From NCBI RefSeq assembly GCF_008119665.1, contig NZ_CP043046.1, forward strand, positions 1,116,001 to 1,180,000: a DNA stretch of 64,000 nucleotides, written 5' to 3'. The notes beneath the pieces were generated by a model. The model made no database searches. It was not told the DNA's origin and saw only the letters and a program-made list of their open reading frames with translations. This DNA is from Pigmentiphaga aceris (GTDB lineage Bacteria; Pseudomonadota; Gammaproteobacteria; Burkholderiales; Burkholderiaceae_B). A program made the translations under genes and the position numbers. Of the stretch, positions 5,517 through 64,000 are shown one piece after another (position 1 is the first letter of the stretch; each line of letters begins with the position of its first letter).

Positions 5517-5565
5517 TGAAAAACGGGGAGCCAACAGCAGAAAATGCTGCTGTTGGCTCCCCGTG
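5517..5565 (-). terminator. Intrinsic terminator of the XapX-amidohydrolase-DoxX-MFS operon
   Basis: A perfect 18-bp stem pairs 5523-5540 with 5547-5564 around a 6-base loop. On the minus strand it is followed by TTTTT. It ends the operon read from 9930 down to 5601. The remainder of 5238-5600 holds no gene that can be supported and is the upstream region of the twin-PCC gene. Confidence 0.88.
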
Positions 5566-5600
5566 TCGGTCTACGCGCAAACGACGTGTGTGGATTGATC

Positions 5601-9526: not shown

Positions 9527-9537
9527 GGCGTCTTCCT

Positions 9538-46694: not shown

Positions 46695-47663
46695 TCAATT
46701 CATGAAATGAATCGCCGGCCCGATCGACGCGGGCAGCATCTCGCTGTGGTTCTTGTCGGGGATCAGGCGAAAGCGCGTGCTGAAGCTGCTTTGGCGCATC
46801 AGCTGTTCCGAGAAGAACTGCGCATCCGGCATATCTGGCGACAGCGGTTGCGGGGTGCCCGGGCGCGGTTGGCGGCGTTCCTTGCCGCCTACCAGTACGA
46901 ACAGCTTTCGCCCACCGGGAACTGCCTGTCTCTGGAAATACTCCTTGGCTTCTTCAGACACCGCACGGTTCTGCCACCACAGCGATGGGCTGGTGGCAAT
47001 GTAGGTCTGGAACATGTCGGACCGGGTGAACAGTGCGTGCAATACAAACAGGCCGCTGTATGAATGGCCGTACAGGCCCAGGCGCGAGGTGTCGACGGGG
47101 ATCTCGCGTTTCACCAGCGGAATGACCTCGTTATCGAGAAATACCAGGAAATCGTCTGCACCGCCGCCTTGTTCTTCACCAGGTTGCGGGGCGTTGCCGG
47201 GGCGTGGGCCGGGCAGGTAGTCCCAGGCGCGGAAGCCGCCTGAATTCGGCTGGTCGGCTTCGTAGTCGATGAAGACAGTCGCGATTTTTGCCGGTGGCGC
47301 GCCTTCAAGATAGGCACCATTCAATGCGCCCAGTGCCGTGCGTCCATCCAGGATGAACAGCACCGGAAAACCTTTGTCGGGTGCCATGCCGGATGGTGCC
47401 GCGATCTTGATTTCGTAGCGGCGTTTGCCGTCCTTGGACACCAGCCGATGTTCGCGCGCTACCGCTGCGGGCACGCCTACCGGAATGTCGTCAGCAATGA
47501 CCACGGGCGATGACAGGGGCGGGATGGCGGCGGGCAGTGGAGTGGTCTGCGCAAAGGCGGGCAGGGCACAGGCCGAGAGCAGCAGCATCGCCGCGATGCG
47601 CATGCGGCGTGGTGCAAAAAGGGGGGAGATGGACGCAGACGAGGCGGGCAAGATGGGATGCAT
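46695..47663 (-). CDS. Exported siderophore-type esterase (IroE-like alpha/beta hydrolase)
   Basis: The 322-aa alpha/beta hydrolase of the Fes/IroE-type esterase group (PF00756 style) has an N-terminal signal (RRMRIAAMLLLSACALPAFA), so it acts in the periplasm. It has the family's FRAWDYLPGPRPG block (R..DY.P motif), the nucleophile in GLYGHSYSG, SPSLWW, and the late KNHSEMLP histidine. The closest role is IroE-like, single-cut linearisation of a trilactone catecholate siderophore. The ATG at 47663 has an AGG site, while a later ATG at 47603 lacks one. It follows a second esterase on the same strand. Confidence 0.82.
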   Translation of the reverse strand: MHPILPASSASISPLFAPRRMRIAAMLLLSACALPAFAQTTPLPAAIPPLSSPVVIADDIPVGVPAAVAREHRLVSKDGKRRYEIKIAAPSGMAPDKGFPVLFILDGRTALGALNGAYLEGAPPAKIATVFIDYEADQPNSGGFRAWDYLPGPRPGNAPQPGEEQGGGADDFLVFLDNEVIPLVKREIPVDTSRLGLYGHSYSGLFVLHALFTRSDMFQTYIATSPSLWWQNRAVSEEAKEYFQRQAVPGGRKLFVLVGGKERRQPRPGTPQPLSPDMPDAQFFSEQLMRQSSFSTRFRLIPDKNHSEMLPASIGPAIHFMN

Positions 47664-47774
47664 GGAAGCGCCTGGAAGTCGAACAAAAATCATACCCAGT
47701 TTCATGCGATGCGGATGGGCCCGTCACCATCCGTCGCATTGATGCATCGCGGTTTTCTGACGATCAGCTAGCTG

Positions 47775-48683
47775 TCAGCATTCATCCCACGCCGTGGCTT
47801 CGTCCGGCATCCATTCCGACGCCAGTGCCGCACACAACCCCGCCAGCAAGGCGACCGGCACGATGGTGCGGTGGGTTTCATTCGCAAAGTAGCGAAAGCC
47901 GACACGCAGGTCGCTGCGGGTGCGCAGTGCGTTGGCAATCTCGCGGTTGTGATCGACCATGAATCGGGTGTCGCGCTGTTTGCGGGCAACCTCGATGTCG
48001 GGGCCGTTTTCCGCCAGTTCTGCCGGGCTGAGCGCTTGCTCATATTCACCCGCGCTCAGCCAAAGACGCGCAACGGGCACGTCAGCCGTGGCATCTTGTG
48101 CGGCAAAACGCTTGGCCATTTCCAGCAACTGCGCATCGCGCCACCAGACCGAGGGGCTGGATGCCAGGTAGGACTGGAACGCGTCGGGTTGTCTGAACAG
48201 CGCCAGCAACACCAGCATGCCGCCCAGCGAATGGCCGGCGAAGGTCTGCGCGCCGCGATCGACGGGCAGCACGTTTTCCACGGCGGGCCGAAGGTCGTCC
48301 AGCACAAAGTCCAGGAAGGCGTCGGCTCCGTGGTGCTTGGGGTTCGGCTCGCCATGCAGCGCGGCAGGGGTGTAGTCGAATACACGACGGTTCTCAGCCG
48401 GGTAGCCAATGCCGACGATGATGCCCGCCCGCAAGCTGTCTGCCGTGCCGCCGCCTGCCCGGTAGCGCAGCATCTCGGTGGCCAGCAGGAAGGTGTCGCT
48501 ACCCAGCAGGTAGACAATCGGCCAGCCCGCTGCGGGTGCTTCGCCCTCGGGCCAGGAAATCAGAATGCGATAGGGCGCGCCGCTGCGGGCGGTGATCAGG
48601 CACTCATGGGTGCGCGGAACGATCATGCCGCCCTGATGGCGAGTCGGATCGAAAGCGAGAAGGGCGGTCAGGTCCAGCGACAT
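47775..48683 (-). CDS. Cytoplasmic siderophore-type esterase (Fes/IroD-like hydrolase)
   Basis: The 302-aa alpha/beta hydrolase is of the same Fes/IroE group as its neighbours but has no signal peptide, so it should act in the cytoplasm. It shows an NRRVFDYTPAAL block, the nucleophile in AGHSLGGMLVL, SPSVWWRDAQ, and a late ETHRTIVP histidine. It probably hydrolyses the ester backbone of the ferric siderophore after uptake so iron can be reduced. It is divergent from the permease gene across 383 bp. The ribosome site is weak. Confidence 0.82.
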   Translation of the reverse strand: MSLDLTALLAFDPTRHQGGMIVPRTHECLITARSGAPYRILISWPEGEAPAAGWPIVYLLGSDTFLLATEMLRYRAGGGTADSLRAGIIVGIGYPAENRRVFDYTPAALHGEPNPKHHGADAFLDFVLDDLRPAVENVLPVDRGAQTFAGHSLGGMLVLLALFRQPDAFQSYLASSPSVWWRDAQLLEMAKRFAAQDATADVPVARLWLSAGEYEQALSPAELAENGPDIEVARKQRDTRFMVDHNREIANALRTRSDLRVGFRYFANETHRTIVPVALLAGLCAALASEWMPDEATAWDEC

Positions 48684-49066
48684 GGAAGCACTCACAACAA
48701 ACGGGGGATCGGGACGGAAAACAGCCGGTGCGCAAGTTCCGGTCTGCACGCGTCCAAAGACAGACCATCAGGGCAATCGAAGGCCTGCCAACAAGCGTGC
48801 ATGGCACCCGCGTCTTTATACGTGGGTGCAAATCATGGGATACTGAATGATTACGATTCAGGTGTCTAATCCTGGTCGGTTGTATCTCGGTGGTGTTGGG
48901 TCAACCCCGCCGACGTGCTCACCGCCGTGTCATTGGCCGCTTGCTATCGTCCGGGGATATTGGCGTGAATTTTTCGTCGTTAATTGTCGGCGTGCGTTCC
49001 TCGCCGTTAAGTTTTCCCGCTCGTTCCAGCCGTTAATTCCTTTCCTGTCAGGCAGCCCCCGCGTCC
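48684..49066. other. Divergent control region of siderophore transport genes
   Basis: The 383-bp gap lies between the minus-strand esterases and the plus-strand FecCD gene. It holds a 17-bp inverted sequence TGAATGATTACGATTCA at 48844-48860. This is a partial match to a Fur box, with 10 of 19 positions of the classical site, so it is weak. Three CGTTAA words at 48978, 49005 and 49031 are spaced 26-27 bp apart. The leader of the FecCD gene is pyrimidine-rich and has no good ribosome site. Confidence 0.4.
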
Positions 49067-50143
49067 GTGAAGCGTTCTCCTTCAGCATCTCTCCCGCTCA
49101 GCGGTGATCCCCTCGATACCGCCACGCTTTACCGCGGCATGTTGCGGCGTCGGATCGGCCTGGTGGCCTTGTTGGCTGGCATCATTGTGCTGGCCATTCT
49201 TGCCGACTTCATGCTTGGCCCGGCCGGCCTGGGCCTGCGTGACCTGGCCTATGCGCTGTTCAATCCGCAGGCCACCGACCCCACCACGCGGGTCATCGTC
49301 TGGGACATCCGGCTGCCGCAGGCGCTGATGGCCATGGCAGTGGGCATGGCGCTTGGCCTGGCCGGTGCCGAAATGCAGACCATTTTGAACAACCCGCTGG
49401 CCAGCCCATTTACGCTGGGTCTGTCGTCGGCCGCTGCCTTTGGTGCGTCGCTGGTCATCGTGCTGGATATCGGCATTCCTGGCCTGCCGGCATCGTGGCT
49501 GATCGCGGGCAACGCCTTTGCCTTCGCCTTGCTGGCTGCCTTGCTGCTGGACGCGGTCGCGCGCTGGGGCGGCATGAACGCATCGGGCGTGGTGCTGTTC
49601 GGTATTGCGTTGGTGTTCTCGTTCAACGCACTGGTGGCCCTGGTGCAGTTCGTAGCCAGCGCCGAAGCCCTGCAAGGACTGGTGTTCTGGACCATGGGCA
49701 GCCTGACGCGCGCCAGCTGGGGCAAGCTGGGCATGTTGCTGCTGGTGTTTGCGATCATCCTGCCGCTGTCAATCCGCGATTCCTGGCGTCTGACTGCCAT
49801 GCGCCTGGGCGAAGACCGCGCGGCCAGCTTCGGCATCAATGTGCGCCGTCTGCGCCGCACGGCGCTCATCCGCATCAGTGTGCTGTCGGCGCTGGCCGTG
49901 GCCTTTGTCGGCACCATCAGCTTCATCGGCCTGGTCGCGCCGCACATTGCGCGCCGGTTGTTTGGTGAGGATCACCGTTTCTATCTGCCCGGCAGCGCGC
50001 TGGTGGGCGGTGTGATTCTGTCGCTTGCGTCGATCGCGTCGAAGAATATCGTGTCGGGCATCGTCATTCCGGTCGGTATCGTCACGTCGCTGGTCGGCAT
50101 TCCGTTCTTCCTGGCGGTCGTGTTCCGCCGTCAGATGCAGTAA
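49067..50143 (+). CDS. FecCD-type siderophore ABC transporter permease
   Basis: The 358-aa inner-membrane permease has about ten helices and the BtuC/FecCD signature blocks: DIRLPQALMAMAVGMALGLAGAEMQTILNNPLASPFTLGLSS (beginning residue 81), GIALVFSFNALVALVQF and a C-terminal VGTISFIGLVAPHIARRLFGEDHR region. It carries a ferric siderophore across the inner membrane together with the ATPase encoded 8 bp downstream. The start is GTG at 49067 with a poor ribosome site. A single permease gene suggests a homodimer. Confidence 0.92.
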   Translation: MKRSPSASLPLSGDPLDTATLYRGMLRRRIGLVALLAGIIVLAILADFMLGPAGLGLRDLAYALFNPQATDPTTRVIVWDIRLPQALMAMAVGMALGLAGAEMQTILNNPLASPFTLGLSSAAAFGASLVIVLDIGIPGLPASWLIAGNAFAFALLAALLLDAVARWGGMNASGVVLFGIALVFSFNALVALVQFVASAEALQGLVFWTMGSLTRASWGKLGMLLLVFAIILPLSIRDSWRLTAMRLGEDRAASFGINVRRLRRTALIRISVLSALAVAFVGTISFIGLVAPHIARRLFGEDHRFYLPGSALVGGVILSLASIASKNIVSGIVIPVGIVTSLVGIPFFLAVVFRRQMQ

Positions 50144-50151
50144 GGCTGTCC

Positions 50152-50934
50152 GTGTTCGATATCCGTCACCTTCGCGTCGCTTACGGCGAGCGCACCATCA
50201 TTTCCGACCTGTCGGTGCAGCCGCTGCAAACCGGCACTGTCACAGCACTGCTCGGCCCCAACGGCAGTGGCAAGTCCACGCTGTTGAAAGCACTGGCTGG
50301 CCTGACCCGTATTTCTGGCGGCCAGGTGCTGCTGGATGACCAGGACCTGACCTCGGCCAGTTTCGAGACACGTGCGCGACAAGTGGTGTATTTGCCGCAG
50401 TCTCTGCCGGCCGCCGTGCACCTGCGGGTGTTCGAATCGGTGTTGGTGGCAGCCAATGCGTCCACGTTTGCAGATGGCGGCAGCGCCAGTGTCGCCGCCG
50501 TGCAGAGCTTGCTGGAACGCTTGGGCATTGGCCATTTGGCCATGCAGTACCTAGACAGCCTGTCCGGTGGTCAGAAGCAGCTGGTTGGCTTGGCACAAGC
50601 CATGATCCGCCGTCCGCGCCTGTTGTTGCTGGACGAACCCCTGTCGGCGCTGGACTTGAACTATCAATTCCACGTGATGGACCTGCTGAATCAGGAAACC
50701 CGCGAAAACGGCTTGATCACCGTGATCGTGTTGCACGACCTGAACATCGCGCTGCGCCACGCCGATTACACCCTGATGATTCGCAAGGGCGAACTGATCG
50801 CCGAAGGCTCCCCGCGTGAGGTGATCAGCCCGTCTTCGCTAGCTGATGTCTACGGGGTGGTGGGGCGCGTCGAACCTTGCTCGCGCGGCATTCCCCAGGT
50901 GCTGATCGACGGCTTGCACAACCCGATTCATTGA
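50152..50934 (+). CDS. FepC-type siderophore ABC transporter ATPase
   Basis: The 260-aa ATPase shows Walker A GPNGSGKST (residues about 35-43), the signature LSGGQKQ, Walker B LLLLDEP and the switch histidine in VIVLHDLNIALRH. This is the FecE/FepC pattern. It powers the FecCD permease encoded 8 bp upstream. The start is GTG at 50152. No siderophore-binding protein follows at once; a matching one starts at 51281 beyond a Fur box. Confidence 0.93.
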   Translation: MFDIRHLRVAYGERTIISDLSVQPLQTGTVTALLGPNGSGKSTLLKALAGLTRISGGQVLLDDQDLTSASFETRARQVVYLPQSLPAAVHLRVFESVLVAANASTFADGGSASVAAVQSLLERLGIGHLAMQYLDSLSGGQKQLVGLAQAMIRRPRLLLLDEPLSALDLNYQFHVMDLLNQETRENGLITVIVLHDLNIALRHADYTLMIRKGELIAEGSPREVISPSSLADVYGVVGRVEPCSRGIPQVLIDGLHNPIH

Positions 50935-51009: not shown

Positions 51010-51039
51010 TTGTGCCTGCCTGCGGGGAACGGGTAGAAT
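51010..51039 (+). promoter_or_regulatory. Promoter overlapping the Fur box
   Basis: TAGAAT at 51034-51039 is a fair -10 box, and TTGTGC at 51010-51015 an imperfect -35 box, 18 bases apart. The -10 box overlaps the Fur-box candidate at 51037, so bound Fur would block RNA polymerase. Confidence 0.5.
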
Positions 51040-51055
51040 GAGAATCAACCTTATT
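51037..51055. promoter_or_regulatory. Fur-box candidate
   Basis: AATGAGAATCAACCTTATT lies 225 bp before the siderophore-binding-protein gene. Shifted by three bases it matches the classical 19-bp Fur site at 12 of 19 positions. It also agrees with an AATGAGAATCATTCTCATT-type symmetrical site at 16 of 19 positions. Iron-loaded Fur should repress the downstream run here when iron is plentiful. It is the best such site seen in the window. The rest of 50935-51280 holds only the leader. Confidence 0.75.
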
Positions 51056-51280
51056 AAATCCGTGCGGCGCGATGATTGGCTGTCGCCCGCCAGCGGATGC
51101 GCGAACCCAGGCCGGAGATGCCCGGGACCCGCTCGCGACGATGCCGCCGCCTGAATGTCGATTAATGCCGGGCAATTGTTCGGTGTTTCCTTCTCGTCTC
51201 GTTCTTGCTTCGTATCTGCGCCGTACTTCCGTATTGCTTGTTCCGTCACGTCTGTCCCGTTCCCCTCACGTCGATCCGTC

Positions 51281-52429
51281 ATGACCTTGCTGCGCCGCTT
51301 TGTTTGCCTCTTCCTGTTCTGCACCGCTTTGGCGGGTGGACTCGCCAGCGCAGCGCCGATCACGCTGACAGACGTTGCCGGGCGCAAGGTCGTGTTGCCC
51401 AAGCCCGCAACCCGCGTGGTGTTGGCGCAGGCGCGTTACCTGCCCATGCTGGGCATTCTTACGCCTGACCCGGTGGCGATCCTGGCGGGCTGGTCCGACG
51501 AGTTCAAGACCTCTTACGCCAGCGACTACGACGATTACCTGGCGAAATATCCGTCCCTGGCCAAGGTGCCGGTGGTGGGTCGTCACACGGCAGACACTTT
51601 CTCGGTCGAAACCACGCTGGCACTGCGTCCCGACCTGGTGATCCTGACCTCTGCATTTGCCGGCATTCGCCCGGGCACCGACGCATCGGCCTCGCCGCTG
51701 GTTCGCGCCTTCGATGCGGCAGGCGTGCCGGTAGTGGTGGTCGACTTCTTCATGAAGCCGCTGGAAAACACGGTGCCCAGCATCCGTATTCTGGGTCAGG
51801 CACTGGGCCACGAAGATCGTGCTGAAGCCTTCATCAGCTTCTACGAATCGCACATGAAACGCATCGGCACGCAGACTGCCAAGGTCAGCAGCAAGCCGCC
51901 GGTGTTTGTGCACGCGCATGCCGGCAGCACCGACTGCTGCAACTCGCCGGGCGTAGGCACCTTCAATGACATGATCACGTTCGCAGGCGGCCACAACATC
52001 GGTGCCGATGTGATCAAGAGCGCCACCGGTTCGCTGGGCTTCGAGTACATCAACAGCCGCAATCCGGTCGTCTACGTGGCCACCGGCACGGGTGCCGGTC
52101 GTCGCAGCGGCACCGGTCTGGCAATCGGTGCCGGGGTGGAGCTGGACGCCGCCCAAGTCGGCCTGAAGCGTGTGCTGGACGGCGCTGGCCTGGGTGCCCT
52201 CAGCGCAGTGCGCAAGGGCAATGCCCATGGTATCTGGCACGGCTTCAATGACTCGCCGCTGCACGTGGTGTTCATCGAATCGCTGGCGCGCTGGATCGAC
52301 CCGGTTGGTTTCAAGGACGTGTCGCCGCAGCAGACGCTGGACGAGATCAACCAGAAATTCCTGACGGTGCCGCTGCGCGGTACCTACATGGTGGATTTGC
52401 CGGTCGCGCCGGGTGGCGCGAGCCGCTGA
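51281..52429 (+). CDS. Ferric siderophore ABC transporter substrate-binding protein (FepB/FecB type)
   Basis: The 382-aa periplasmic protein has a signal peptide (residues 1-23, ending LASAA). A class III siderophore-binding fold follows, opening with ITLTDVAGRKVVLPKPATRVVL and continuing with an ALRPDLVILTSAF block. A CC pair lies in a HAGSTDCCNSPGVG segment. It should deliver a ferric catecholate to the FecCD permease encoded upstream, from which it is separated by the Fur-box region. The ATG at 51281 is chosen for the signal peptide; no ribosome site is visible. Confidence 0.9.
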   Translation: MTLLRRFVCLFLFCTALAGGLASAAPITLTDVAGRKVVLPKPATRVVLAQARYLPMLGILTPDPVAILAGWSDEFKTSYASDYDDYLAKYPSLAKVPVVGRHTADTFSVETTLALRPDLVILTSAFAGIRPGTDASASPLVRAFDAAGVPVVVVDFFMKPLENTVPSIRILGQALGHEDRAEAFISFYESHMKRIGTQTAKVSSKPPVFVHAHAGSTDCCNSPGVGTFNDMITFAGGHNIGADVIKSATGSLGFEYINSRNPVVYVATGTGAGRRSGTGLAIGAGVELDAAQVGLKRVLDGAGLGALSAVRKGNAHGIWHGFNDSPLHVVFIESLARWIDPVGFKDVSPQQTLDEINQKFLTVPLRGTYMVDLPVAPGGASR

Positions 52430-52434
52430 GCGCC

Positions 52435-53346
52435 GTGCTTTCTTCACCCAGACCGTTGGCTGGCGAAACCCGCTGGCAGGTCGAAACCCTGGCCCCGCCG
52501 CGTGCGCTGGGCCAGTCGCCGTCAGAGACGCCTGCCCCTTGGCGCTCTGTTGACGGCGAACGCGCCTACACCGTGCAAGTGGTGTCGCCGCTGCATACCG
52601 ACCCGGACACGTGTCTGCCCTTGCTGTATGCGCTGGATGGCGAACTGGTCTTGGCGGCGCTGCATGCTTTGCCGGCCTGCCCGGTGCGGGTGGTGGCGAT
52701 CTCGCACGACAGTGACCGCAAGTCGGGCCGGGCCTACGACTACACCCCACCCATTGCACAGCGCGGCGTGCTGCATGACCCGCGTGTGCCCGAATGGCGT
52801 GCAGGTGGGGCCGATGCGTTTCTGTCGTTCATTGTGGATACCTTGCAGCCCGAGGTAGCAGAGGCTTTCGCGGTCGATCCCGATTGCCAGATCTTGTACG
52901 GGCATTCCTACGGTGGCCTGTTCGTGCTGCATGCACTCAGCACCCGTCCGCATGCGTTTTCGGCGTATCTGGCCGCCAGCCCCGCGCTGTGGTGGTTTGA
53001 ATTGCAGGCGTCTCGTCCGATCCAGCTGGTTGAAACGCTGGCTGCGCAGTCGCTGACGCACGCGGTCGATGTGGTAGTAACGGCGGGTGGGCAGGAAGCC
53101 TGGCACCCGGTTGCCATTGGTGCAGACGGCACGCCTGCCAGCCGAAGCGGTGGCGTGCCTACGCTGCCCGCTGCGCGCGGCTTGGCCGCGCTGCTGGCCA
53201 ACGTGCCCGGCGTGCATGCCCGTTTCCATGATTTCCCCCAGGCCACGCATCACACCATGCTGGCCGAGTCGGCGCGTTTCGCGCTGGACTTTGCGGCGCA
53301 CGCTGCCGCCTCGCATGCCCCCAGCGCGTCTCCGCTTTCCCGATGA
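52435..53346 (+). CDS. Siderophore-type esterase (Fes/IroE-like hydrolase), third copy
   Basis: The 303-aa alpha/beta hydrolase lacks a signal peptide. It shows the R..DYTP motif in GRAYDYTPPIAQ, the nucleophile Ser158 in YGHSYGGLFVL, SPALWWFELQ and a late QATHHTMLAES segment with the catalytic histidine. It belongs with the two esterases at 46695-48683 but sits in the Fur-controlled run. The start is GTG, 5 bp after the binding-protein stop. Its stop overlaps the next start (ATGA), linking it to the Liv-type transporter. It is likely a cytoplasmic hydrolase of the ferric siderophore. Confidence 0.85.
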   Translation: MLSSPRPLAGETRWQVETLAPPRALGQSPSETPAPWRSVDGERAYTVQVVSPLHTDPDTCLPLLYALDGELVLAALHALPACPVRVVAISHDSDRKSGRAYDYTPPIAQRGVLHDPRVPEWRAGGADAFLSFIVDTLQPEVAEAFAVDPDCQILYGHSYGGLFVLHALSTRPHAFSAYLAASPALWWFELQASRPIQLVETLAAQSLTHAVDVVVTAGGQEAWHPVAIGADGTPASRSGGVPTLPAARGLAALLANVPGVHARFHDFPQATHHTMLAESARFALDFAAHAAASHAPSASPLSR

Positions 53347-54581
53347 AATTTTCAGACAAGTTTTCAGAAACCCGCCCCATGACTTCGACTTCGATCACCC
53401 GCCGCCATCTGCTTGCCGCCACTGCTGCCTCTGCGCTTGGTCTCGGCCTGATGCGCCCCGTGCGCGCAGCCGGTGGCACCACGCCGATCAAGATCGCGCT
53501 GGTCACGTCCTTGTCCGGCCCGTTCGCGGCCCTGGGCGAAAGCATGCGTGCCGGCCTGGAATTGTTGATTGCTGAATCGGGCAGGCAGATGGGCGGACGA
53601 CCGGTCACGTTGCTGGTCGAAGACGACCAGGGCAAGCCCGACGAAGCCGTGCGCAAGGTGCGCAAGCTGCTGTCGCAAGACAAGGTCGATGTGCTGTGCG
53701 GCGTGATCAGTGCTGCCGTGGCGCTGGCCATTCGCGATATCGTGGCCGATGCCAAAGCACTGACCTTCATCTCGATCGCCGCCGCCAACGGCCTGGCGCG
53801 CGAAGCCGCCAGCCCCTACATCTTCCGTCCCACCAAGACCAGCTGGATGCTTGGCCACACCGGTGCGCTGTGGACCTACGACAAGATTGCCAAGGAAGGC
53901 GGGATCACGCTGGGCTCGGACTACGCGGCCGGCCGTGAATACGTGGGCGACTTCATCAATACCTATCGCCAGCAGGGCGGCAAGGTCGGCCAGCAACTGT
54001 GGACCCCGCTGGGCACCGCCGACTTCGCGCCCATTGTGATGAACCTGGCTGCTGCTGCCCCGTCCTTCGTCTACGCCTTCTTCCCCGGCGCCGACGCCGT
54101 GCGTTTCCTGCAGCAGATGCGTGACTTCAAGTTGCAGGACAAAATTCGCGTGATCGGCCCGGGCGCATTGTTCGATCAGGAAGACGTGTTGCCGGCTGCT
54201 GGCGACGCGGGCCTGGGCGGCGTCAACACCTACCATCAGTCACCGGGTGCACCGGCCTCGGCCGCGTTTGCTGCGGCCTACCTGAAGGCACGCAACCGCA
54301 TCCCGGGCGAAGCCAGCACCTCGGCCTACGCCACTGGTCAGGTCATCCGCGCAGGCATCGAAGCCGTGGCCGGTGACATCGCGCAGAAGGACAAGCTGAA
54401 AGAGCGCCTGCTGTCTGCACCGGTATCGACCGCACTCGGCCCGATGCGCTTCGACGCGCGCAACAACCAGGCCATTCTGGACATCTACGTGAACGAAGTG
54501 CGTCGCGGTGCCGACGGCAAGCCGTTCAACACCGTGGTCCACACCTACCCGGCGATCCAGGACCCGGGTCCGAAGGCCTGA
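53343..54581 (+). CDS. Branched-chain-amino-acid-type ABC substrate-binding protein (LivK-like)
   Basis: The 412-aa periplasmic protein of the HAAT family has a twin-arginine-like signal (TRRHLLAATAASALGLGL), a leucine-binding-type fold starting PIKIALVTSLSGPFAALGESM and an LVEDDQGKPDEAVRKVRKLL block. Family members bind branched-chain amino acids, amides or aromatic acids. Its place between a siderophore esterase and phosphopantetheinyl transferase suggests a ligand linked to the siderophore, such as DHB or DHB-serine, but that is inference. A second possible start is ATG 53379. Confidence 0.88.
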   Translation: MKFSDKFSETRPMTSTSITRRHLLAATAASALGLGLMRPVRAAGGTTPIKIALVTSLSGPFAALGESMRAGLELLIAESGRQMGGRPVTLLVEDDQGKPDEAVRKVRKLLSQDKVDVLCGVISAAVALAIRDIVADAKALTFISIAAANGLAREAASPYIFRPTKTSWMLGHTGALWTYDKIAKEGGITLGSDYAAGREYVGDFINTYRQQGGKVGQQLWTPLGTADFAPIVMNLAAAAPSFVYAFFPGADAVRFLQQMRDFKLQDKIRVIGPGALFDQEDVLPAAGDAGLGGVNTYHQSPGAPASAAFAAAYLKARNRIPGEASTSAYATGQVIRAGIEAVAGDIAQKDKLKERLLSAPVSTALGPMRFDARNNQAILDIYVNEVRRGADGKPFNTVVHTYPAIQDPGPKA

Positions 54582-54600
54582 TCGGGGCCGCGCACACATC

Positions 54601-55470
54601 GTGTCCTACTACCTTGTCCAGACGCTGAACGCGCTGTCCTTCTCGGTGTTGCTGATGCTCACCGGGCTGGGCCTGTCGCTGGTGCTGAGCCTGATGAACT
54701 TCGTGAACCTCACGCACGGTTCATTTTTCCTGCTGGGCGGCTACGTGGCTATCCATTGGATAGGCGCAGGCGCACCGTGGTGGATGGCATTCCCCGCTGC
54801 TTTTGTGATCGCTGGCGCGGTCGGTCTGGTGCTGGACCGCTTCCCCTTCGGCCGCTTCTATCCGCGCACGCACCTGATGCAGGTGCTGCTGACCTACGGC
54901 CTGTCGGTGATCTTTGCCGACCTGATGCGCTGGGGCTTCGGGGCAGATACGGTGTCGCTGCCCACGCCAGAACTGTTGCGCGGCGTGGTGTTTGTCGCGG
55001 GTCTGCCATTCCCGATCTATCGCCTGTTCATCATCGCCACGGGCGGTGTGCTGGCGCTGGGGCTTTGGTATGCGATTGACCGCACCTTGTGGGGCGCGGC
55101 GATCCGCGCCTGCGTGATCGATCGCGGCATTGTCGAAACCCTGGGTTTGAATACGCGGCGCATCTTCACTGTGGGCGTGGTGCTGGCGGCGGGCCTGGGC
55201 GGCCTGGGTGGCGCACTGGGCTCGGGCATGTTGTCGGCATATCCGGGACTGGATGAAGAAGTGCTGTTGCTGGCCTTGCTGGTGGTGGTGGTCGGTGGCC
55301 TGGGTAGCTTTGGCGGCACGGTGCTGAGCGCCTTGCTGCTTGGCTTTGTCACGACCTTCAGCCGTGTGTGGCTGCCGGAATTCGCCAACTTCCTGTCGCT
55401 TGGCATCATGGCAGCGGTGTTGGTCATGTGGCCGTCGGGCCTGGTCGTGCGCAAGATGAGGCAGGTATGA
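54601..55470 (+). CDS. LivH-like branched-chain-amino-acid-type ABC permease
   Basis: The 289-aa permease has about eight helices and the LivH blocks LMNFVNLTHGSFFLLGGYVA and GLGGLGGALGSGMLSAYPGLD, followed by VVVVGGLGSFGGTVLSALLLG. The proposed start is a GTG at 54601, 19 bp after the binding protein; its ribosome site is weak. It overlaps livM in ATGA. With LivM, LivG and LivF it forms a HAAT importer. The sequence alone does not fix the solute. Confidence 0.9.
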   Translation: MSYYLVQTLNALSFSVLLMLTGLGLSLVLSLMNFVNLTHGSFFLLGGYVAIHWIGAGAPWWMAFPAAFVIAGAVGLVLDRFPFGRFYPRTHLMQVLLTYGLSVIFADLMRWGFGADTVSLPTPELLRGVVFVAGLPFPIYRLFIIATGGVLALGLWYAIDRTLWGAAIRACVIDRGIVETLGLNTRRIFTVGVVLAAGLGGLGGALGSGMLSAYPGLDEEVLLLALLVVVVGGLGSFGGTVLSALLLGFVTTFSRVWLPEFANFLSLGIMAAVLVMWPSGLVVRKMRQV

Positions 55471-56456
55471 GCGCCCATCTGAACACCACCACGCATCAGG
55501 CACCTGCGCCTGCCAAGTACCGTTTGGGCGACAAGATTGCGGCCGGGCTGGTGCTGCTGTTGGCGCTGATCCCGTTGGTATCTGGCGACGGATTTTCGCT
55601 GCGCTTCGGTGCCGAAATCCTGTTGATCGGCACCGCGGTGATGAGCCTGAATCTGCTGATCGGTGGCGGTGGCCTGGTGTCGCTGGGCCATGCGGCGGTG
55701 TTTGGCGCGGCGGGTTACAGCGCGGCAGTTGCTGCCGGTTCCTGGGGGGCACAACTGCCGGTAATGCTCGTGATCGGTATCTTCGCCGGCATGCTGATCG
55801 CCAGCATCATAGGCCTGGTTACCTTGCGCAGTGCCGGCCTGTTCTTCCTGGTGCTGACCTTGGTGGTTGGTCAGATGGTCTGGGAACTGGCCTTCCGCTG
55901 GCGCGATGTCACCGGTGGTGCAGACGGCCTGCGCGGCTTCCCGAAACTGGCGCTGGGCAGCCTGCGCCTGGACACGCCTTTGGCTTTGTATCTGGTGGCG
56001 GCTGCCATTGCGCTGGTCGGGTGGGCAGTCACGCGCAGCTTCCAACGGGCACCGATTGGCCAAGCCTTGGCCGGTGTGCGCGATCAGCCGATTCGCATGG
56101 GGGCACTGGGTTATCAGGTTGGCCGCATCCGTGTGACTGCCTTCCTGTTGGCAGGTGCGGTGGCCGGTGCAGCGGGTGCGATCTATCCCTTCGTGAACCA
56201 ATATATCGGCCCGAACTCGGTTCACTGGAGCATGTCGGCAGCGCTGATCATCATGGCGGTGATCGGCGGCGTGGGCTCTCTGTACGGCGGGTATCTGGGC
56301 GCATTGGTCTACCTGTTCGTGCAGACCGAAGTCAGCTCGTACACCGACCGCTGGCAACTGGTGATCGGCCTGATCTTCGTGGCCACCGTCATCTTGATGC
56401 CCAACGGCATTGCGCACTGGCTGGGCCAGCGCGGTGTGCGGGGAGGGCGGTCATGA
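55467..56456 (+). CDS. LivM-like branched-chain-amino-acid-type ABC permease
   Basis: The 329-aa permease has a polar N-terminus of about 25 residues, then about nine helices. It includes GGGLVSLGHAAVFGAAGYSAA (starting about residue 67) and a VIGGVGSLYGGYLGALVYLFV block near the end, both typical of LivM. It overlaps livH and livG by ATGA at either end, so the permease and ATPase genes are translationally coupled. It pairs with LivH in the membrane. Confidence 0.9.
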   Translation: MSAHLNTTTHQAPAPAKYRLGDKIAAGLVLLLALIPLVSGDGFSLRFGAEILLIGTAVMSLNLLIGGGGLVSLGHAAVFGAAGYSAAVAAGSWGAQLPVMLVIGIFAGMLIASIIGLVTLRSAGLFFLVLTLVVGQMVWELAFRWRDVTGGADGLRGFPKLALGSLRLDTPLALYLVAAAIALVGWAVTRSFQRAPIGQALAGVRDQPIRMGALGYQVGRIRVTAFLLAGAVAGAAGAIYPFVNQYIGPNSVHWSMSAALIIMAVIGGVGSLYGGYLGALVYLFVQTEVSSYTDRWQLVIGLIFVATVILMPNGIAHWLGQRGVRGGRS

Positions 56457-57352
56457 GTCTGTTGCCGACCTTCGCATGGCCGACGTTTGCCTTGCCGACT
56501 TCTGTGTCGTCCGCTGCAATGCCTGCCGATGCATCATCCGGTGCTGCATCACCAAACGCCGCATGCCCAATTCCTACGTCTGCCGATGCCCAGCCGCACG
56601 CGCTGCTGCGCATCACCGACATCGCCAAGTCCTTCGGCGCGTCACGTGTGCTGGAATCGGTCAGCCTTGATGTGCGCGCCGGCGAAACGCTTGGCCTGAT
56701 CGGGCCGAACGGCGCGGGCAAGACCACCTTGTTCAACATCATCACCGGGTTCCTGCACGCCGATACCGGCACGGTGCTGTTCGAGGGGCGTGACCTGGGC
56801 ACCATGCCGTCGCCTGCGCGCGCGCGGCTTGGGCTGGTGCGCACCTTCCAGAAAAGCCTGGTGTTCCCGACGCAATCGATTCGCCGCAACGTTGCCATGG
56901 CCGTGCGTGCGCAAGGGAGCGGAGCTTATCGCTGGTGGGGTGGCCGCGCTGCCCATGCGCAGGCCGACGCCACGGCGCAGGCGCTGATCGATGGCTGCGC
57001 ATTGGCCGGTCGTGGTGACGAGCTGGTGGCTGACCTGTCTTACGGTGAACAACGCATCGTCGACATGCTGATCGCGCTGGCGCAATCGCCGCGTGTGCTG
57101 CTGCTGGACGAACCCACGGCCGGGCTATCGACTGAGGAAGCTGCGCAGTTGCTGGCGCTGGTGCGTCAGCATCATGCGCAGACCGCCGTTGTACTGATCG
57201 CCCATGACATCGACGTGGTGTTCCGCGAATGCGACCGCATTGCGGTGCTGGACCTGGGACGCTTGATCGCCATCGATACGCCTGAAGTCGTGCGCCAGCA
57301 TCCGGGTGTGCGCGCAGCCTACCTGGGCGCACTGGCCGAGGTGCAGGCATGA
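56453..57352 (+). CDS. LivG-like ABC ATPase with an N-terminal extension
   Basis: The 299-aa ATPase starts with about 45 residues of alanine/serine/proline-rich sequence not seen in typical LivG proteins, then the ATPase core: Walker A GPNGAGKTT, signature LSYGEQRIV, Walker B LLLDEPTAGLS and switch HDIDVVF. The ATG at 56453 follows GGGAGG, so the extension seems genuine. It overlaps livM and livF. It hydrolyses ATP to drive the Liv-type importer. Confidence 0.88.
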   Translation: MSLLPTFAWPTFALPTSVSSAAMPADASSGAASPNAACPIPTSADAQPHALLRITDIAKSFGASRVLESVSLDVRAGETLGLIGPNGAGKTTLFNIITGFLHADTGTVLFEGRDLGTMPSPARARLGLVRTFQKSLVFPTQSIRRNVAMAVRAQGSGAYRWWGGRAAHAQADATAQALIDGCALAGRGDELVADLSYGEQRIVDMLIALAQSPRVLLLDEPTAGLSTEEAAQLLALVRQHHAQTAVVLIAHDIDVVFRECDRIAVLDLGRLIAIDTPEVVRQHPGVRAAYLGALAEVQA

Positions 57353-58092
57353 GCAACACCGATCAACTCGTGCGTTTCGAAAGCGTCTCGGCGGGCTATG
57401 GCGGCGTTACGGTCCTGGATCGCATCGATCTGAGCCTGGCGCGTGGCGAGGTGTTGGCCGTGCTCGGTCGCAACGGTGCGGGCAAGACCACGCTGCTGAA
57501 CGCCTTGTTCAACCTGGGGCCGGAACTGAGCGGACGCATCACGGTGAAAGGCGAGTCCGTCACCAACTGGCCCACGCATCGCATCGCTCGCCTGGGCCTG
57601 GCTTTGGTGCCGCAAGGGCGCGGCGTGTTCCACACCCTTGCCGTGCACGAAAGCCTGCGCCTGGCGACGCTGGCACGCAAGCCGGCTGGCAGGTCGGTTA
57701 GCCCCTCGGCTAGCCCCTGGACGCTCGATCGCGTCTACCGCGAATTCCCCCGCCTGCATGAGCGTCGTCTGGCATCCAGCGGCGCACTCAGCGGCGGCGA
57801 GCGGCAGATGCTAGCGCTGGCGCGTGCGCTGCTGACGCAGGCCGACACCATCGTGCTCGACGAGCCCAGCGAAGGTCTGGCCCCGCTGGCGGTCGAAGAA
57901 GTGCTGGTGCATCACGTCTCCCGGCTGGCGGCAGAAGGTCTGACGGTGGTACTGGCGGAACAGAACGTGGCGATGGCCTTGCGGGTTGCCACCCGCGCGC
58001 TGGTGCTGTCGGCAGGACGTATGGTGTTCGACGGCACCCCGGCGGCGCTTGCCGCCGACCATGCGCTGCATCAAGAGCACCTTGGGGTCTAG
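57349..58092 (+). CDS. LivF-like ABC ATPase
   Basis: The 247-aa ATPase has Walker A GRNGAGKTT, signature LSGGERQMLALARAL, Walker B IVLDEPSEGLAPL and the LivF-type Q-loop region with LVPQGRGVFHTLAVHESL. It contains a short insertion (KPAGRSVSPSASPWTLD) before the signature. It completes the five-gene Liv-type transporter, overlapping livG by 4 bp. The phosphopantetheinyl transferase gene starts 5 bp after its stop, so the transporter and synthesis genes are one run. Confidence 0.9.
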   Translation: MSNTDQLVRFESVSAGYGGVTVLDRIDLSLARGEVLAVLGRNGAGKTTLLNALFNLGPELSGRITVKGESVTNWPTHRIARLGLALVPQGRGVFHTLAVHESLRLATLARKPAGRSVSPSASPWTLDRVYREFPRLHERRLASSGALSGGERQMLALARALLTQADTIVLDEPSEGLAPLAVEEVLVHHVSRLAAEGLTVVLAEQNVAMALRVATRALVLSAGRMVFDGTPAALAADHALHQEHLGV

Positions 58093-58097: not shown

Positions 58098-58991
58098 ATG
58101 ATCCACGTCACCCTGGTCCGCACCGATATCCACGACATGCTGCTCGCGCAGATGATGAACGCCTTGTCGCCTGCCGAACGCGCCCGTGCCGCGCGCTTTC
58201 GCACGGCGGCGGACCGGCGTCGACACGTGGTGGCCAGGACGGTGTTGAAAAGCCTGCTGGCCGAGCAATTGGATGTGCAGGCGCAAGACGTGCAACTGTC
58301 GGTAGGTGCGTATGGCAAGCCGGTGTTGGTGCGGCATGGCTATGACGCACATCTCCAATACGGTGCACGCGCATCCATGCCCAACGCAGCGCCGGCCCAT
58401 CTGTCATCCGTTCACACTTTTGACGCGCTGCACTTCAACCTGTCGCACAGTGGTGATCTGGCCCTGATTGCACTGGCTCCGGTGCCTGTTGGCATCGACC
58501 TGGAACGCGATACCCCGGCCGATGCAAATGCCTTGGTGCAGGCGTGGTTCACCCCGGCCGAACAAGGCCGGCTGGCGCGCGGTGACGATGATTTCCTGTC
58601 GCTCTGGACTGCGCGCGAAGCCGTGCTGAAAGCGGTTGGAACCGGCTTGTCTGCCGACCCGGCTGCTTTCTCGTTGCCATCGCAGAAGTCGACCACGATG
58701 CAGTCTGCAAGTGGCCTGCCGCAGTTCGAGCCGGTACAGATTCCAGCTGCAAGTGCAGGGTCTGAATTCCAGGGCTATATCGTGGCTGCGCTCGCGCTCG
58801 ACGCTGCCCAGGCCAATGCCCACGCTGCGATTCCACCCACGCTGATCGCCCCCTACCGCGCCGCCATCGCCTTGCGCGGCGCAGCGCTGCCCGTGCAACT
58901 TCATTACGCCGACGCTGCCCGGTTCAGCCCACGCGTTACGCTGGATGCCCTTGCACCCGCGTCTGCCGACGCCATGTGCGTGCTCTCCTGA
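58098..58991 (+). CDS. Sfp-type 4'-phosphopantetheinyl transferase
   Basis: The 297-aa enzyme converts apo carrier proteins to the holo form by attaching phosphopantetheine from CoA. It has the Sfp/EntD motifs: FNLSHSGD near residue 113, VGIDLE with the metal-binding acids near residue 135, and the late FLSLWTAREAVLKAVGTG block. It is somewhat longer than Sfp, with insertions between the first halves and a C-terminal extension. It should activate the aryl carrier and peptidyl carrier domains of the adjacent siderophore NRPS. It follows livF by 5 bp. Confidence 0.92.
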   Translation: MIHVTLVRTDIHDMLLAQMMNALSPAERARAARFRTAADRRRHVVARTVLKSLLAEQLDVQAQDVQLSVGAYGKPVLVRHGYDAHLQYGARASMPNAAPAHLSSVHTFDALHFNLSHSGDLALIALAPVPVGIDLERDTPADANALVQAWFTPAEQGRLARGDDDFLSLWTAREAVLKAVGTGLSADPAAFSLPSQKSTTMQSASGLPQFEPVQIPAASAGSEFQGYIVAALALDAAQANAHAAIPPTLIAPYRAAIALRGAALPVQLHYADAARFSPRVTLDALAPASADAMCVLS

Positions 58992-59005: not shown

Positions 59006-60640
59006 ATGACCCTGACCGCTCAACAAATCTGGCCCGAGGAATTTGCCCAACGCTACCGCGCTGCCGGTCATTGGCGTGGCGAAACCTTCGGCAGCTATCT
59101 GCGCGAACGCGCCGCCGCCCACCCCGAGCGGGTGGCGATTGTCGCGGGCGACACGCGCTGGACCTATGCCGAATTGGATGCACGCGCCGATGCGCTGGCG
59201 CGTGGGCTGCTGGACGCAGGTATCAAGCCGGGCGAGCGGGTCATCGTTCATCTGCCGAACATCCCGGAATTCCTGTCGGTGGTGTTCGGCCTGTTCCGCG
59301 CTGGCATCTTGCCGCTGTATGCGCTGCCCGCCCACCGCATCACGGAAATCGAACACTTCGCCAACAGTGGCGAAGCCGTGGGGTACGTTGCCGCCGAGCG
59401 CCACGATGGCTTCGACTACCGTGCCCTGGCACGAGAACTGAAAACCCGCGTGGCGTCAGTAAAGAACGTGTTCATCGTTGGTAATGCTGATGAATTCACT
59501 TCGTTCGACGCGCTGGAAGCGCAGGGCCGCGCAAGCAACACGGAACCCGTGCCGCCCGTGCCGTCCACGGTGGCCTTCCTGCAGATTTCGGGCGGCAGCA
59601 CTGGCCTGTCCAAGCTGATCCCGCGCACGCACGACGACTACATCTACACGCTGCGCGAAAGCGCGCGCATCTGCGGGCTGGATGGCGACAGTGTGTTTAT
59701 GGGCGCGCTGCCCATTGCCCACAATTACCCCATGAGTTCGCCGGGCGTACTGGGTGCCCTGTACGCCGGGTCACGCGTGGTGCTCAGCCCCTCGCCCAGC
59801 CCGGAAGCTGCCTTCCCGCTGATCGAGCGCGAGCGTGTCACCGACGTCAGTCTGGTGCCGCCTCTGTTGCTGGTGTGGATGCAGGCAGCGCCGGGAACCA
59901 AGGCCGACTTGTCGAGCCTGAAAGTGGTGCAAGTGGGTGGTGCAAAGCTGATGCCGGAAGTGGCACGCCGTGTGCGCCCGACGCTGGGCGTGACTTTGCA
60001 GCAGGTGTTCGGCATGGCCGAAGGGCTGGTCAACTACACGCGCCTGGATGACCCGGAAGAACTCATCATCCAGACCCAGGGTCGTCCGATCAGCGAAGAC
60101 GACGAAGTACTGGTGGTCGATGACCAGGGCAATGCCGTGCCGGAAGGCGAAGCCGGTTATCTGTTGACGCGTGGTCCTTACACGATCCGTGGATATCACA
60201 ACAACCCGTCGGCCAATGCGCGCTCGTTCACGGAAGACGGTTTTTACCGCACCGGCGACATCGTGAAGCGCACGCCGGAAGGTTACGTGGTGGTGCAGGG
60301 GCGGGCGACCGATCACATCAATCGTGCAGGCGAAAAAATCTCGGCAGAAGAGATCGAAGATCACTTGCTGGCGCACCCGCAGGTCTTCGATGCGGCGGTG
60401 GTGTCCATCCCCGACGAATACCTGGGCGAGCGCAGCTGTGCCTTCATCATTGCGCAGGGCGAGCGGCCCAAGGGCGCAGTGCTGAAGCAGTGGATACGTT
60501 CACGCGGGCTGGCCGAGTTCAAGGTGCCGGACCAGGTGGTGTTCGTTGACAGTTTCAGTGCCACGGCGGCACTCAAGGTCAGTCGCAAGGAATTGCGTGC
60601 GGCCTTGCGTGCGCAGTTGACCGCGCAAGACGACGCTTAA
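59006..60640 (+). CDS. entE: 2,3-dihydroxybenzoate-AMP ligase (EntE/DhbE type)
   Basis: The 544-aa stand-alone aryl-acid adenylation enzyme activates 2,3-dihydroxybenzoate as acyl-AMP and loads it on the aryl carrier protein. It shows [18 protein letters not shown], the P-loop [19 protein letters not shown], the aryl-binding [10 protein letters not shown] segment, [18 protein letters not shown] and the C-terminal lysine in [11 protein letters not shown]. The serine following SS in the pocket segment corresponds to the DHB-type residue (salicylate enzymes have cysteine), supporting DHB over salicylate. An ATG at 59006 is preferred to a longer in-frame reading from 58976. A 95-bp gap with a tandem 12-mer follows. 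Confidence 0.93.
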
Positions 60641-60735: not shown

Positions 60736-60990
60736 ATGACAGATGCAACGCAGACCCTGAGCCTTGAACAAATGCGCGCCGACATCGCGCGGATTCTGCA
60801 TGAAGACCCGTCCGAGATCGGTGACGAAGACAGCCTGATCGACCTGGGCCTGGACTCGATCCGCGCGATGGCGCTGGTGACGCGCTGGCGCGACGCTGGT
60901 GCCACCGTCGAGTTCTCTGAACTGGCGGAAGATGCACGCCTGAGCCACTGGTGGGCCGTGGTCGAACGTGCGTTGGCACGCAAGGCCTGA
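60736..60990 (+). CDS. Free-standing aryl carrier protein (ArCP)
   Basis: The 84-aa carrier protein has the phosphopantetheine site Ser41 in [12 protein letters not shown]. Further features are typical of EntB-type aryl carriers: RWRDAG after helix 2 and a WW pair in [10 protein letters not shown]. It should receive dihydroxybenzoyl from EntE and pass it to the condensation domain of the next gene. In E. coli the aryl carrier is fused to isochorismatase in EntB; here the isochorismatase half is missing and is not elsewhere in the window. AAGGT precedes the ATG. Confidence 0.93.
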
Positions 60991-60997: not shown

Positions 60998-63900
60998 ATG
61001 ACGACGCACCACGCAGACCAAGGCAGCGCTGAGTTGACCCAAGACGATCCGACCGGCACGCAGGTGAGCCAAAGCGCGCTGACGTCATCTCCCTTGACGT
61101 CATCTCCATTGACGCCTTCCCCGCTTACCGAAGCCCAGACCGGTCTTTGGTACGCGCAGCGCATGGATCTGAACAATCCGATCTTCAATACTGGGCAATA
61201 CGCAGAGCTGCGTGGCCCGCTGGATCTGGAAGCCATGCGCCGCGCAGTCGACACCAGCATGGCCGAGGCCGATGGCCTGGCCGTGCGTGTTATCGACATG
61301 CCCGAGGCACCGCAGCAAGTGGTCGATCCGGCGCTGCGGCCAACGCTGCAAGTCATCGATCTGCGTGATGAGTCCGACCCGATGGCAGCCGCCCAGGCGC
61401 GCATGCGTGCAGACCTGCACGGCCCTATCGACACCGCCATTGGTCCGCTGGCCTCGCAACGTCTGTTCATCTTGGGCGACGAACACCATCTTTGGTATCA
61501 GCGTGTGCACCACGTGGCCACCGACGGCTACGGCATGGCCTTGATCGACGGCCGGGTGTCCCAGCTGTATGCCGCCTACACGGGCGCAAGCCAGGACACA
61601 GGTTCTCCACTGGGCAACTTCCAGGCGGTACTGAACGAAGACGCGGAGTACCGAACGTCGGCATTGCGCGAACGTGATCGGGCATTCTGGCTGAATGCGT
61701 TTGCGCAGCCTGCGCCGGTTGCCAATCTGGCTGACGGCATGCCGGTCAGCGGTCACCGTTTCCTGCACGCATCGCAGCCTTTGCCCGAACCGCTGGCTGC
61801 CGCCATGCGCACGCTGGAATCTGCCACGCAGGTGTCGTGGCCCGATATCCTGGTGGCGCTGACGGCCGCTTATCTGTGCCGGCATTCCGGTCAGCAAAGC
61901 ACGGTAGTCGGTGTGCCGTGGATGGGCCGTCTGGGCAGCCCCAGCGCGCGTGTGCCGGCCATGGTGATGAACATCGTGCCCTTGCAGGTCACGGTGGACG
62001 AAGATGCACCAATCGGGGATTTCCTGGTCGAGACCTCGAAAGCCATGCGTCGTGCGCGTCGTCACGGTCGTTATCGCAGTGAACAGCTGCGTCGTGATCT
62101 GGGCTTGCTTGGCGGTCGCAAACGTCTGTACGGACCCTTGATCAACGTGCTGCCCTTTGATGATTCCTGGGGCATGGCGGGGCTGGCGGCGCAGCGGCAT
62201 ATCCTGGGCACCGGCCCGGTCGATGACCTGAGCGTCACCTTCCGCGCCGACAACACCGGTCGCGGGCTGCGGCTGGCTATCGATGCCAACCCGGCGCTGT
62301 ATTCGCAGGCCGATGTGGCGGCGCACTTGGCGCGCCTGGAACACTTCCTGGCCAAAGCGCTGGCAGCCGCAAGCCTGGCGCATGTCCCGACGCTGACCCC
62401 GGCAGAGACGCATCGCTGGCTGGTGGAAGTCAACAACACCAACCACCCGGTGGACGCCACTACGCTGTCGGCGCTGATTGCCAGCACCATGCAGGCACAC
62501 CCGGATGCCGACGCGCTGGTATATGGCCCCAACACGCTGACCTACGCCGAGCTGGATGCGCGCACCGCCGGGCTTGCACAGCGCCTGCGTGATGAAGGCG
62601 TGCAACGCGGCGACATCGTTGCGGTTGCCATCCCGCGTTCGATTGAACTGGTGCTGGCCCTGGTGTCCATTCTGCGCGCGGGTGCTGCCTACCTGCCGCT
62701 GGACATCAGCCATCCGCGCGAACGCCTGGCAACCATTCTGCGTTCGGCCACGCCACGCCTGTTGCTGTCGGTGCCGAAGGTGGTGCCGGTCCTGCCCGAC
62801 AACGCACCCTTGCTGTTGCTGAACGCCTGCGAGCCGGACGCCTTGCAAGCAGGCCAGACCCTGGCCCCCACCACTACGATTGCCATCGAACCGGCTCGCC
62901 CGACCGATGCCGCCTACGTGATCTACACCTCGGGTTCCACCGGTGCGCCCAAGGGCGTGGTGGTGGAACACGATGCCATCGTCAACCGTCTGGAATGGAT
63001 GCGCACGCAGTACGCCGTGGGCGCTGGTGACCGCATTCTGCAGAAGACGCCGGCGACCTTCGACGTGTCGGTCTGGGAATTTTTCCTGCCGCTGCTGGTG
63101 GGTGCCACCCTGGTCGTGGCCCCGCCCGAAGCGCACAAAGACCCGGCCTGGTTGGCTGCCATCGTGCGCACGCACGGCATCACCACCATGCACTTCGTGC
63201 CGTCGATGCTGGCTGCGTTCCTGGCTGAACCGAGCGCCGCAGGACTGTCGCCGCGCCTGGTGTTCTGCAGCGGTGAAGAACTGCCTGCAGCCTTGCGTGA
63301 TCGCTTCCATGCCGTGATGCAAGGCGAGCTGCACAACCTGTATGGCCCGACCGAAGCGGCCGTGGATGTGAGCTACTGGCCAGCATCCGCAGACGATCGC
63401 TCGCAGCCCGTGCCCATCGGTTTCCCGGTGTGGAATACCGCCTTGTACGTGCTGGATGACCGCATGCGCCCGGTGCCGGCAGGGGTGCCCGGCAACCTGT
63501 ACCTGGCAGGCCGGCAACTGGCGCGTGGTTATCTTGGCCAACCCGAACTGACTGAATCGCGCTTCGTACCCAACCCCTTCCAGCCGGGTGCGCGCATGTA
63601 CGCAACCGGTGACCTGGCGCGCTGGCGCGAAGATGGTGCCATGGTCTTCCTGGGGCGTTCAGACCATCAGGTGAAGATTCGCGGCCAACGCATCGAACTG
63701 GGCGAGATCGAAAGCGTGATCGCCAGCGTGCCTACCGTGGCGCATGTGGCGGTCATCGTGCGCACCGACCGTCCGGGCGACCAGCACATCGTGGCCTACG
63801 TAGTGGCGCAAGACGATGCCACGCTGGATGTCGACACCTTGCGCACCCATGCTGCGGCGCGCTTGCCCGACTACATGGTGCCCTCGGCCTTCATGCCGCT

Positions 63901-64000
63901 GGCTGCCTTGCCGGTCACGGCAAACGGCAAGCTCGACCGCAACGCCTTGCCGGCCCCGGCCTTTGCTGCGCGGGTGGGTCGTGCGGCAGCGGCAGGGTCC
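60998..64000 (+). CDS. Non-ribosomal peptide synthetase, EntF-like, 3' end outside window
   Basis: The first 1001 residues are present. After an N-terminal linker with a TSSPL repeat (residues about 28-39), a condensation domain (about 45-470) carries HHVATDG at His171-Asp176 and takes an aryl acid. An adenylation domain follows (about 485-990) with [43 protein letters not shown] and the late NGKLDR lysine. The pocket residues read D-V-W-H-F-S-L-V-D-K, the standard L-serine code. The carrier and thioesterase or further modules lie beyond the window. It starts 7 bp after the aryl carrier gene. Confidence 0.93.

Follow-up and report, generated by a model that had tools for sequence, protein, structure and literature searches.

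The DNA analysed here is a 64,000-nucleotide window of Pigmentiphaga aceris (contig NZ_CP043046.1, positions 1,116,001 to 1,180,000), in which a five-gene transporter block of livKHMGF type, at 53343-58092, lies within a 2,3-dihydroxybenzoate (2,3-DHB) siderophore operon. All five frames are open and intact, and their junctions are tight: the LivK start overlaps the stop of an esterase gene at 53346 by 4 bp, a gap of 19 bp separates LivK from LivH, overlaps of 4 bp join LivH to LivM, LivM to LivG and LivG to LivF, and the phosphopantetheinyl transferase (PPTase) starts 5 bp beyond LivF, at 58098. The proteins form a complete HAAT set with one Peripla_BP_6, two BPD_transp_2 and two ABC_tran members, all above the Pfam gathering cut-offs, so that a preliminary description of the block as complete, coupled to the esterase by overlap and 5 bp from the PPTase agrees with coordinates, frames and Pfam families. 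By eye, the signal peptide of LivK is Tat-like. The NCBIfam models for LIV and urea transporters all remained below their cut-offs on the window proteins (LivK reached 58.2 bits against the LIV model, with a cut-off of 477); together with the Pfam matches, this upholds the HAAT family but fixes no substrate label. The host genome holds 27 matches to Peripla_BP_6.

The liv genes are co-directional with those for the ferric-siderophore importer, the esterase, the PPTase, the ligase, the carrier protein and the non-ribosomal peptide synthetase (NRPS), as listed in Table 1. The set for a DHB siderophore operon is present, with a DHB-AMP ligase, a carrier protein, a PPTase and an NRPS of the domain order condensation, adenylation, carrier, thioesterase (C-A-T-TE). 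The closest solved relative of the ligase is the 2,3-DHB-AMP ligase 1md9 (E 3.7e-213). The NRPS runs past the window end, and its carrier and thioesterase domains (PF00550, PF00975) were found in L010:2-1054; for the part within the window EntF is the top NCBIfam model, yet below its cut-off, and the adenylation domain code, read by eye, presumably specifies serine. The true start of the ferric-siderophore binding protein is perhaps further downstream than the frame given. The standalone carrier protein, the extension of the NRPS beyond the window and the entCBA genes elsewhere in the genome are additions to the preliminary description.

Table 1. Features in and around the livKHMGF block, with window coordinates.
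Feature	Coordinates	Strand	Evidence
Putative esterase, N-terminus signal-peptide-like by eye	46695..47705	-	PF00756 E 1.3e-14
Second putative esterase, no obvious signal peptide by eye	47775..48749	-	PF00756 E 1.6e-17
FecCD-type permease, ferric-siderophore importer	49067..50143	+	PF01032 E 8.5e-80
FecE/FhuC-type ATPase	50152..50934	+	PF00005 E 1.5e-31
Weak Fur-box-like site, gap between FecE and binding protein	51034..51052	+	13/19 match; 9/500 local resamples as good
Periplasmic binding protein, ferric-siderophore importer	51155..52429	+	PF01497 E 4.9e-17; PRK14048 below cut-off
Putative siderophore esterase, operon copy	52435..53346	+	PF00756 E 3.4e-12; enterochelin esterase model far below cut-off
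LivK-like binding protein, putative 2,3-DHB/hydroxybenzoate binder	53343..54581	+	PF13458 (Peripla_BP_6) E 1.2e-65; fold neighbours; pocket residues
LivH-like permease	54601..55470	+	PF02653 (BPD_transp_2) E 3.2e-23
LivM-like permease	55467..56456	+	PF02653 (BPD_transp_2) E 6.1e-28
LivG-like ATPase	56453..57352	+	PF00005 (ABC_tran), PF12399 (BCA_ABC_TP_C)
LivF-like ATPase	57349..58092	+	PF00005 (ABC_tran)
PPTase	58098..58991	+	PF01648, PF22624
2,3-DHB-AMP ligase, DhbE/EntE type	59006..60640	+	TIGR02275 726.6 bits, cut-off 723.55 (narrow pass)
Standalone carrier protein, presumed aryl carrier, between ligase and NRPS	60736..60990	+	PF00550 E 3.6e-10
NRPS, condensation and adenylation domains in window	60998..64000	+	PF00668, PF00501

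The association of the transporter with siderophore genes is conserved. A scan of genome contigs returned 53 loci, 24 of them at at least 59% identity (L011-L034), and in all 12 siderophore-linked cases (the window, L011-L020 and L033) the liv set is followed by ligase and NRPS. The PPTase lies between liv and ligase in 11 of the 12, and an esterase stands directly 5' of LivK in eight. Within the flanks examined, FecCD was not seen in L014 and L015, the PPTase not in L014 and the esterase not in L015, where the upstream half is absent. We further searched 151 genomes of the family, taking at least 65% identity to define a ligase orthologue; here, as in the order and phylum searches below, the best few candidates per genome were scored. 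LivK orthologues were found in 15 genomes and ligase orthologues in 29; all 15 LivK-positive genomes belong to the 29, and liv and ligase are adjacent in 14 of the 15, the exception being G150. Five listed genomes of the same genus have neither orthologue. A chance insertion of the liv genes was rejected, as the block recurs with siderophore genes in other genera and is adjacent in 14/15. Close ortholog pairs are moreover under strong purifying selection, as judged from the ratio of non-synonymous to synonymous rates (dN/dS). At E 1e-100 no further LivK orthologues were retrieved from samples of 300 order and 398 phylum genomes, the host genome being among those sampled; as these thin samples also missed known alphaproteobacterial orthologues, LivK orthologues are rare rather than confined.

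The second context in which the transporter occurs lies in alphaproteobacteria, among them Bosea and Rhodobacterales. Ten of 11 close alphaproteobacterial loci (L022-L028, L030-L032), with LivK about 60% identical, carry the liv genes beside meta-cleavage enzymes; L021 (Geminicoccus) showed no such genes within the stretch examined. The catabolic set comprises a GntR regulator, two extradiol dioxygenases, a class II aldolase, an HMS dehydrogenase, a hydratase and an HpaI-type aldolase. Family searches were run on proteins of L031 and L023, and among the L031 pathway enzymes the HMS dehydrogenase alone exceeded its family cut-off. For the second L031 dioxygenase, 31 of 120 listed relatives are named 2,3-dihydroxy-p-cumate/2,3-dihydroxybenzoate 3,4-dioxygenase by their source, the remaining ones having a general name or none. 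PMC6362003 assigns the meta-cleavage of 2,3-DHB to a type I extradiol enzyme and names a class II aldolase as the decarboxylase that yields the semialdehyde in P. reinekei MT1. From family membership, gene set and automatic names, we infer that 2,3-DHB would be the simplest compound common to both contexts. In a LivK tree of 54 rows, from which L034 and L029 were dropped and for which every fourth sequence of P0121-P0240 was taken, the 12 siderophore-linked rows share one side of a branch, as do the 10 catabolic rows (support 100/99 in both cases); unassigned rows are interspersed in both groups, and the sole outgroup has a very long branch. This topology is compatible with a single recruitment, in either direction.

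What LivK might bind was approached through its pocket and its structural neighbours. In LivJ, T102, D121 and E226 are ligands of the alpha-amino acid. None of the 24 LivK orthologues retains any of them, the register near position 226 being uncertain; the comparison leaves out L034 and, of the 26 paralogues, L099. A LivJ-like paralogue is present elsewhere in the host genome. Among the six best fold neighbours of LivK, several of which are tied with Z differing by less than 1, four have titles naming 4-hydroxybenzoate or vanillate. LivK is thus a predicted binder of a hydroxybenzoate, probably 2,3-DHB or a near relative, and serine and branched-chain amino acids are disfavoured as ligands. 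Note that pocket positions in the siderophore-linked LivK proteins differ from those of the catabolic clade.

The host should not depend on imported DHB. At 5.93 Mb, outside the siderophore operon, its genome encodes an isochorismate synthase, EntC (TIGR00543, above cut-off), a 2,3-dihydro-2,3-DHB dehydrogenase, EntA (TIGR04316, above cut-off), and EntB, an isochorismatase-domain protein recognised by PF00857 only and devoid of a carrier domain (L064:11449-12120). Obligatory import by a host that lacks DHB synthesis was accordingly rejected for this genome. In the genomes with both liv and siderophore genes (the 15 of the family and G005), EntB was found in 16/16 and EntC in 15/16. The exception is the draft genome of Verticiella sp. 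GG226, which has liv and an EntB and an EntA-like frame side by side; no EntC was found there at E 1e-20 and one chorismate-binding protein in all, though the draft is perhaps incomplete, and it is possible that we see either a natural DHB scavenger or an assembly gap. Use of DHB as a carbon source by the host was likewise rejected, as no close 2,3-DHB 3,4-dioxygenase of the L031 type is present, other routes of DHB breakdown not having been searched. The L031-type enzyme gave no match at 1e-20 in 15 of the 16 genomes and a 31% match in G062, and it was matched in three catabolic control genomes. With EntB and EntC present and this dioxygenase missing, DHB has its obvious consumer in the adjacent ligase, and import would serve salvage or supplementation in most hosts. 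EntB stands away from the siderophore locus in 8/16 liv-positive genomes; among the 14 loci without liv (L105-L118), 11 have it within the siderophore stretch examined. Both samples are small and of related genomes.

For regulation, we scored Fur-like sites in 18 gaps, many of them chosen after earlier results, so that single values need care. The gap between FecE and the binding protein contains such sites in the window (Table 1), in L011 (13/19; 6/500 resamples as good), L033 (13/19; 1/500), L012 and L013 (14/19; 1/500 each), and sites directly precede LivK in L018 (15/19; 1/500), L020 (15/19; 0/500) and L017 (14/19; 0/500). Among relatives without liv, L067 and L110 have such a site in the esterase-PPTase gap, and L107, L111 and L118 have one ahead of the ligase. 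Given these sites in the window, in orthologous loci and in liv-less relatives, the liv genes appear, as a prediction, to lie within an iron-controlled unit.

Our favoured reading, held with moderate confidence, is that livKHMGF is a HAAT importer of 2,3-DHB or a close hydroxybenzoate that was recruited into a catecholate siderophore operon of the DHB-serine type. Its computed basis is the intactness of the genes, their conserved linkage, the second context, the likeness of LivK to hydroxybenzoate binders and the lack of a close DHB 3,4-dioxygenase in the host; from these we infer the ligand, the direction of transport, co-transcription and the physiological role. In the periplasm, LivK would bind DHB that had leaked out of the cell, come from the turnover of siderophore or been given off by neighbours, and LivHMGF would pump it inward; the adjacent DHB-AMP ligase would then, in the cytoplasm, load it onto the carrier protein, from which the NRPS would build it into siderophore again. 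The transporter would probably be co-transcribed with the siderophore genes under iron control. A further-reaching version, which we advance only tentatively, is a dedicated high-affinity 2,3-DHB importer akin to that of alphaproteobacterial DHB degradation, placed in an iron-regulated operon where it would close a catechol salvage loop, with some hosts using scavenged DHB for siderophore synthesis. The preliminary description had proposed retrieval of DHB, DHB-serine or serine; linkage, second context, structural neighbours and the missing amino-group ligands favour an aromatic acid such as DHB and speak against serine, but do not discriminate between DHB and DHB-serine. Its other proposal, supply of a precursor, is possible, although import is not the sole source in a genome with entC, entB and entA.

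Several results weigh against a DHB importer or are weak. Fourteen of the 29 ligase-bearing family genomes have no liv, so that the genome comparison, while excluding chance, also yielded the liv-less related loci that the preliminary description had named as contrary evidence; FecCD, FecE, binding protein, ligase and NRPS keep their order in 14/14 of these, of which 12 also have an esterase and nine a recognisable PPTase. The two contexts overlap, as a search of the 10 catabolic genomes (that of L021 was left out) returned ligase relatives at 65-67% identity in two, 45-46% in three and 33-34% in two, and none in three. Most host paralogues of LivK also lack the LivJ triad, and of the six fold neighbours one has a truncated title and one has a title naming no ligand; the paralogues and the title without a shown ligand lowered our confidence marginally. 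In the nearest-solved-relative control, hydroxybenzoate-type matches were obtained for other binding proteins as well, not for LivK alone. A Fur scan of the whole window gave no excess (6 matches against a resampled mean of 8.3), and there was no local signal upstream of FecCD (282/500) or in the ligase-carrier gap (492/500) of the window or between esterase and LivK in L014 (81/500). Between 48700 and 61300 there was no sigma-70-like promoter (shuffled sequence gave 2.1), and terminator-like sites were fewer than by chance (7 against 9.9). Some LivG and LivF pairs have inflated dN/dS values, probably an effect of taking the frames from stop to stop.

Among the alternatives, an importer of DHB-serine or of linear DHB-serine oligomers that a periplasmic esterase sets free, by which the cell would regain both moieties or a weak chelate of ferric iron, would account for the esterases flanking on both sides, one with a signal-like N-terminus by eye, and for the pocket positions unlike those of the catabolic clade, and an amide-linked serine would need no ammonium-binding triad. 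We nevertheless regard it as unlikely, because the enzymes beside the catabolic orthologues have relatives with names that refer to free DHB or dihydroxy-p-cumate, and because the nearest structures hold simple hydroxybenzoates. Rather unlikely, too, is another aromatic acid (salicylate, 3-hydroxybenzoate, protocatechuate or dihydroxy-p-cumate), with the place in the operon reflecting shared regulation or a modified siderophore. The group can be promiscuous, as RPA0668 is stabilised by benzoate, 4-hydroxybenzoate and salicylate (PMC3223731), the dioxygenase name also covers dihydroxy-p-cumate, and two Bosea-type loci contain a close relative of 3-hydroxybenzoate hydroxylase; this enzyme is however found in just 2/10 catabolic loci within the flanks examined, and the neighbouring ligase exceeds the cut-off of the DHB model. 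A conventional importer of branched-chain amino acids or serine that hitch-hikes in the operon, as the family name might suggest and for which serine could feed the NRPS module, is very improbable in view of the amino-group ligands lost in 24/24 orthologues, the LivJ-like paralogue elsewhere in the genome, the adjacency in 14/15 genomes and the strong purifying selection in close pairs.

Compared with known systems, a DHB importer of this kind combines familiar parts. HAAT binders of hydroxybenzoates are already known (PMC3223731), which qualifies the earlier suggestion of a function not standard for the family, while the siderophore setting is unusual: the Rhodopseudomonas proteins (RPA0668/HbaE with hbaEFGHI, RPA0985 and the 4ey3/4eyg protein) share 25-28% identity with LivK and stand in a catabolic setting, not in a siderophore operon. 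The block resembles E. coli LivJ/LivK-LivHMGF in subunit set, K-H-M-G-F order and Pfam families, but lacks the residues at positions 102, 121 and 226 and scores far under the NCBIfam LIV cut-offs. Loci of the enterobactin/bacillibactin type share the DHB-AMP ligase, EntF-like NRPS, PPTase, esterase, FecCD-type importer and genomic entC, entB and entA, whereas the host differs in its standalone carrier, carrier-less isochorismatase, extra HAAT importer and entCBA outside the operon. The dhb genes of P. reinekei MT1 and the opa genes of Pseudomonas PTH10 encode an enzyme set similar to the Bosea and Rhodobacterales liv loci; PMC6362003 describes for opa a TAXI-TRAP transporter thought to serve phthalate and attributes the lack of growth on DHB to perhaps missing DHB uptake. 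Searches of the open-licence PMC literature gave no example of a Liv-type transporter within an operon for a DHB siderophore, though this does not prove that none exists. HAAT importers of aromatic compounds have been described, as have DHB siderophores; the two together did not turn up. The usual picture of a siderophore producer includes an importer of the ferric complex. If the same operon also encodes one for the aryl building block, this would add recycling or scavenging, have a bearing on how the cell regains costly catechols or obtains them from neighbours, and provide a gene-level candidate for active bacterial uptake of 2,3-DHB. The label 'branched-chain amino acid transporter' can mask a siderophore component.

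Some loci deviate in detail. In Paenalcaligenes niemegkensis about 1.1 Mb separate the liv set (L034) from the siderophore locus, and the LivK frame is split, as are the ligase, FecCD and NRPS frames of L067, through either decay or sequencing error. In three Alcaligenes loci (L018, L019, L020) an extra gene block, at about 3600-9750, separates the esterase from liv; it encodes opine-dehydrogenase-like and 3-hydroxyacyl-CoA-dehydrogenase-like proteins, an NMT1/SsuABC-like ABC transporter and a MarR regulator. The protein encoded 3' of the NRPS in the host (L010:1205-2605) is weakly beta-propeller-like, with all Pfam matches below cut-off, and a relative of it follows the NRPS in 13 of the 14 liv-less loci.

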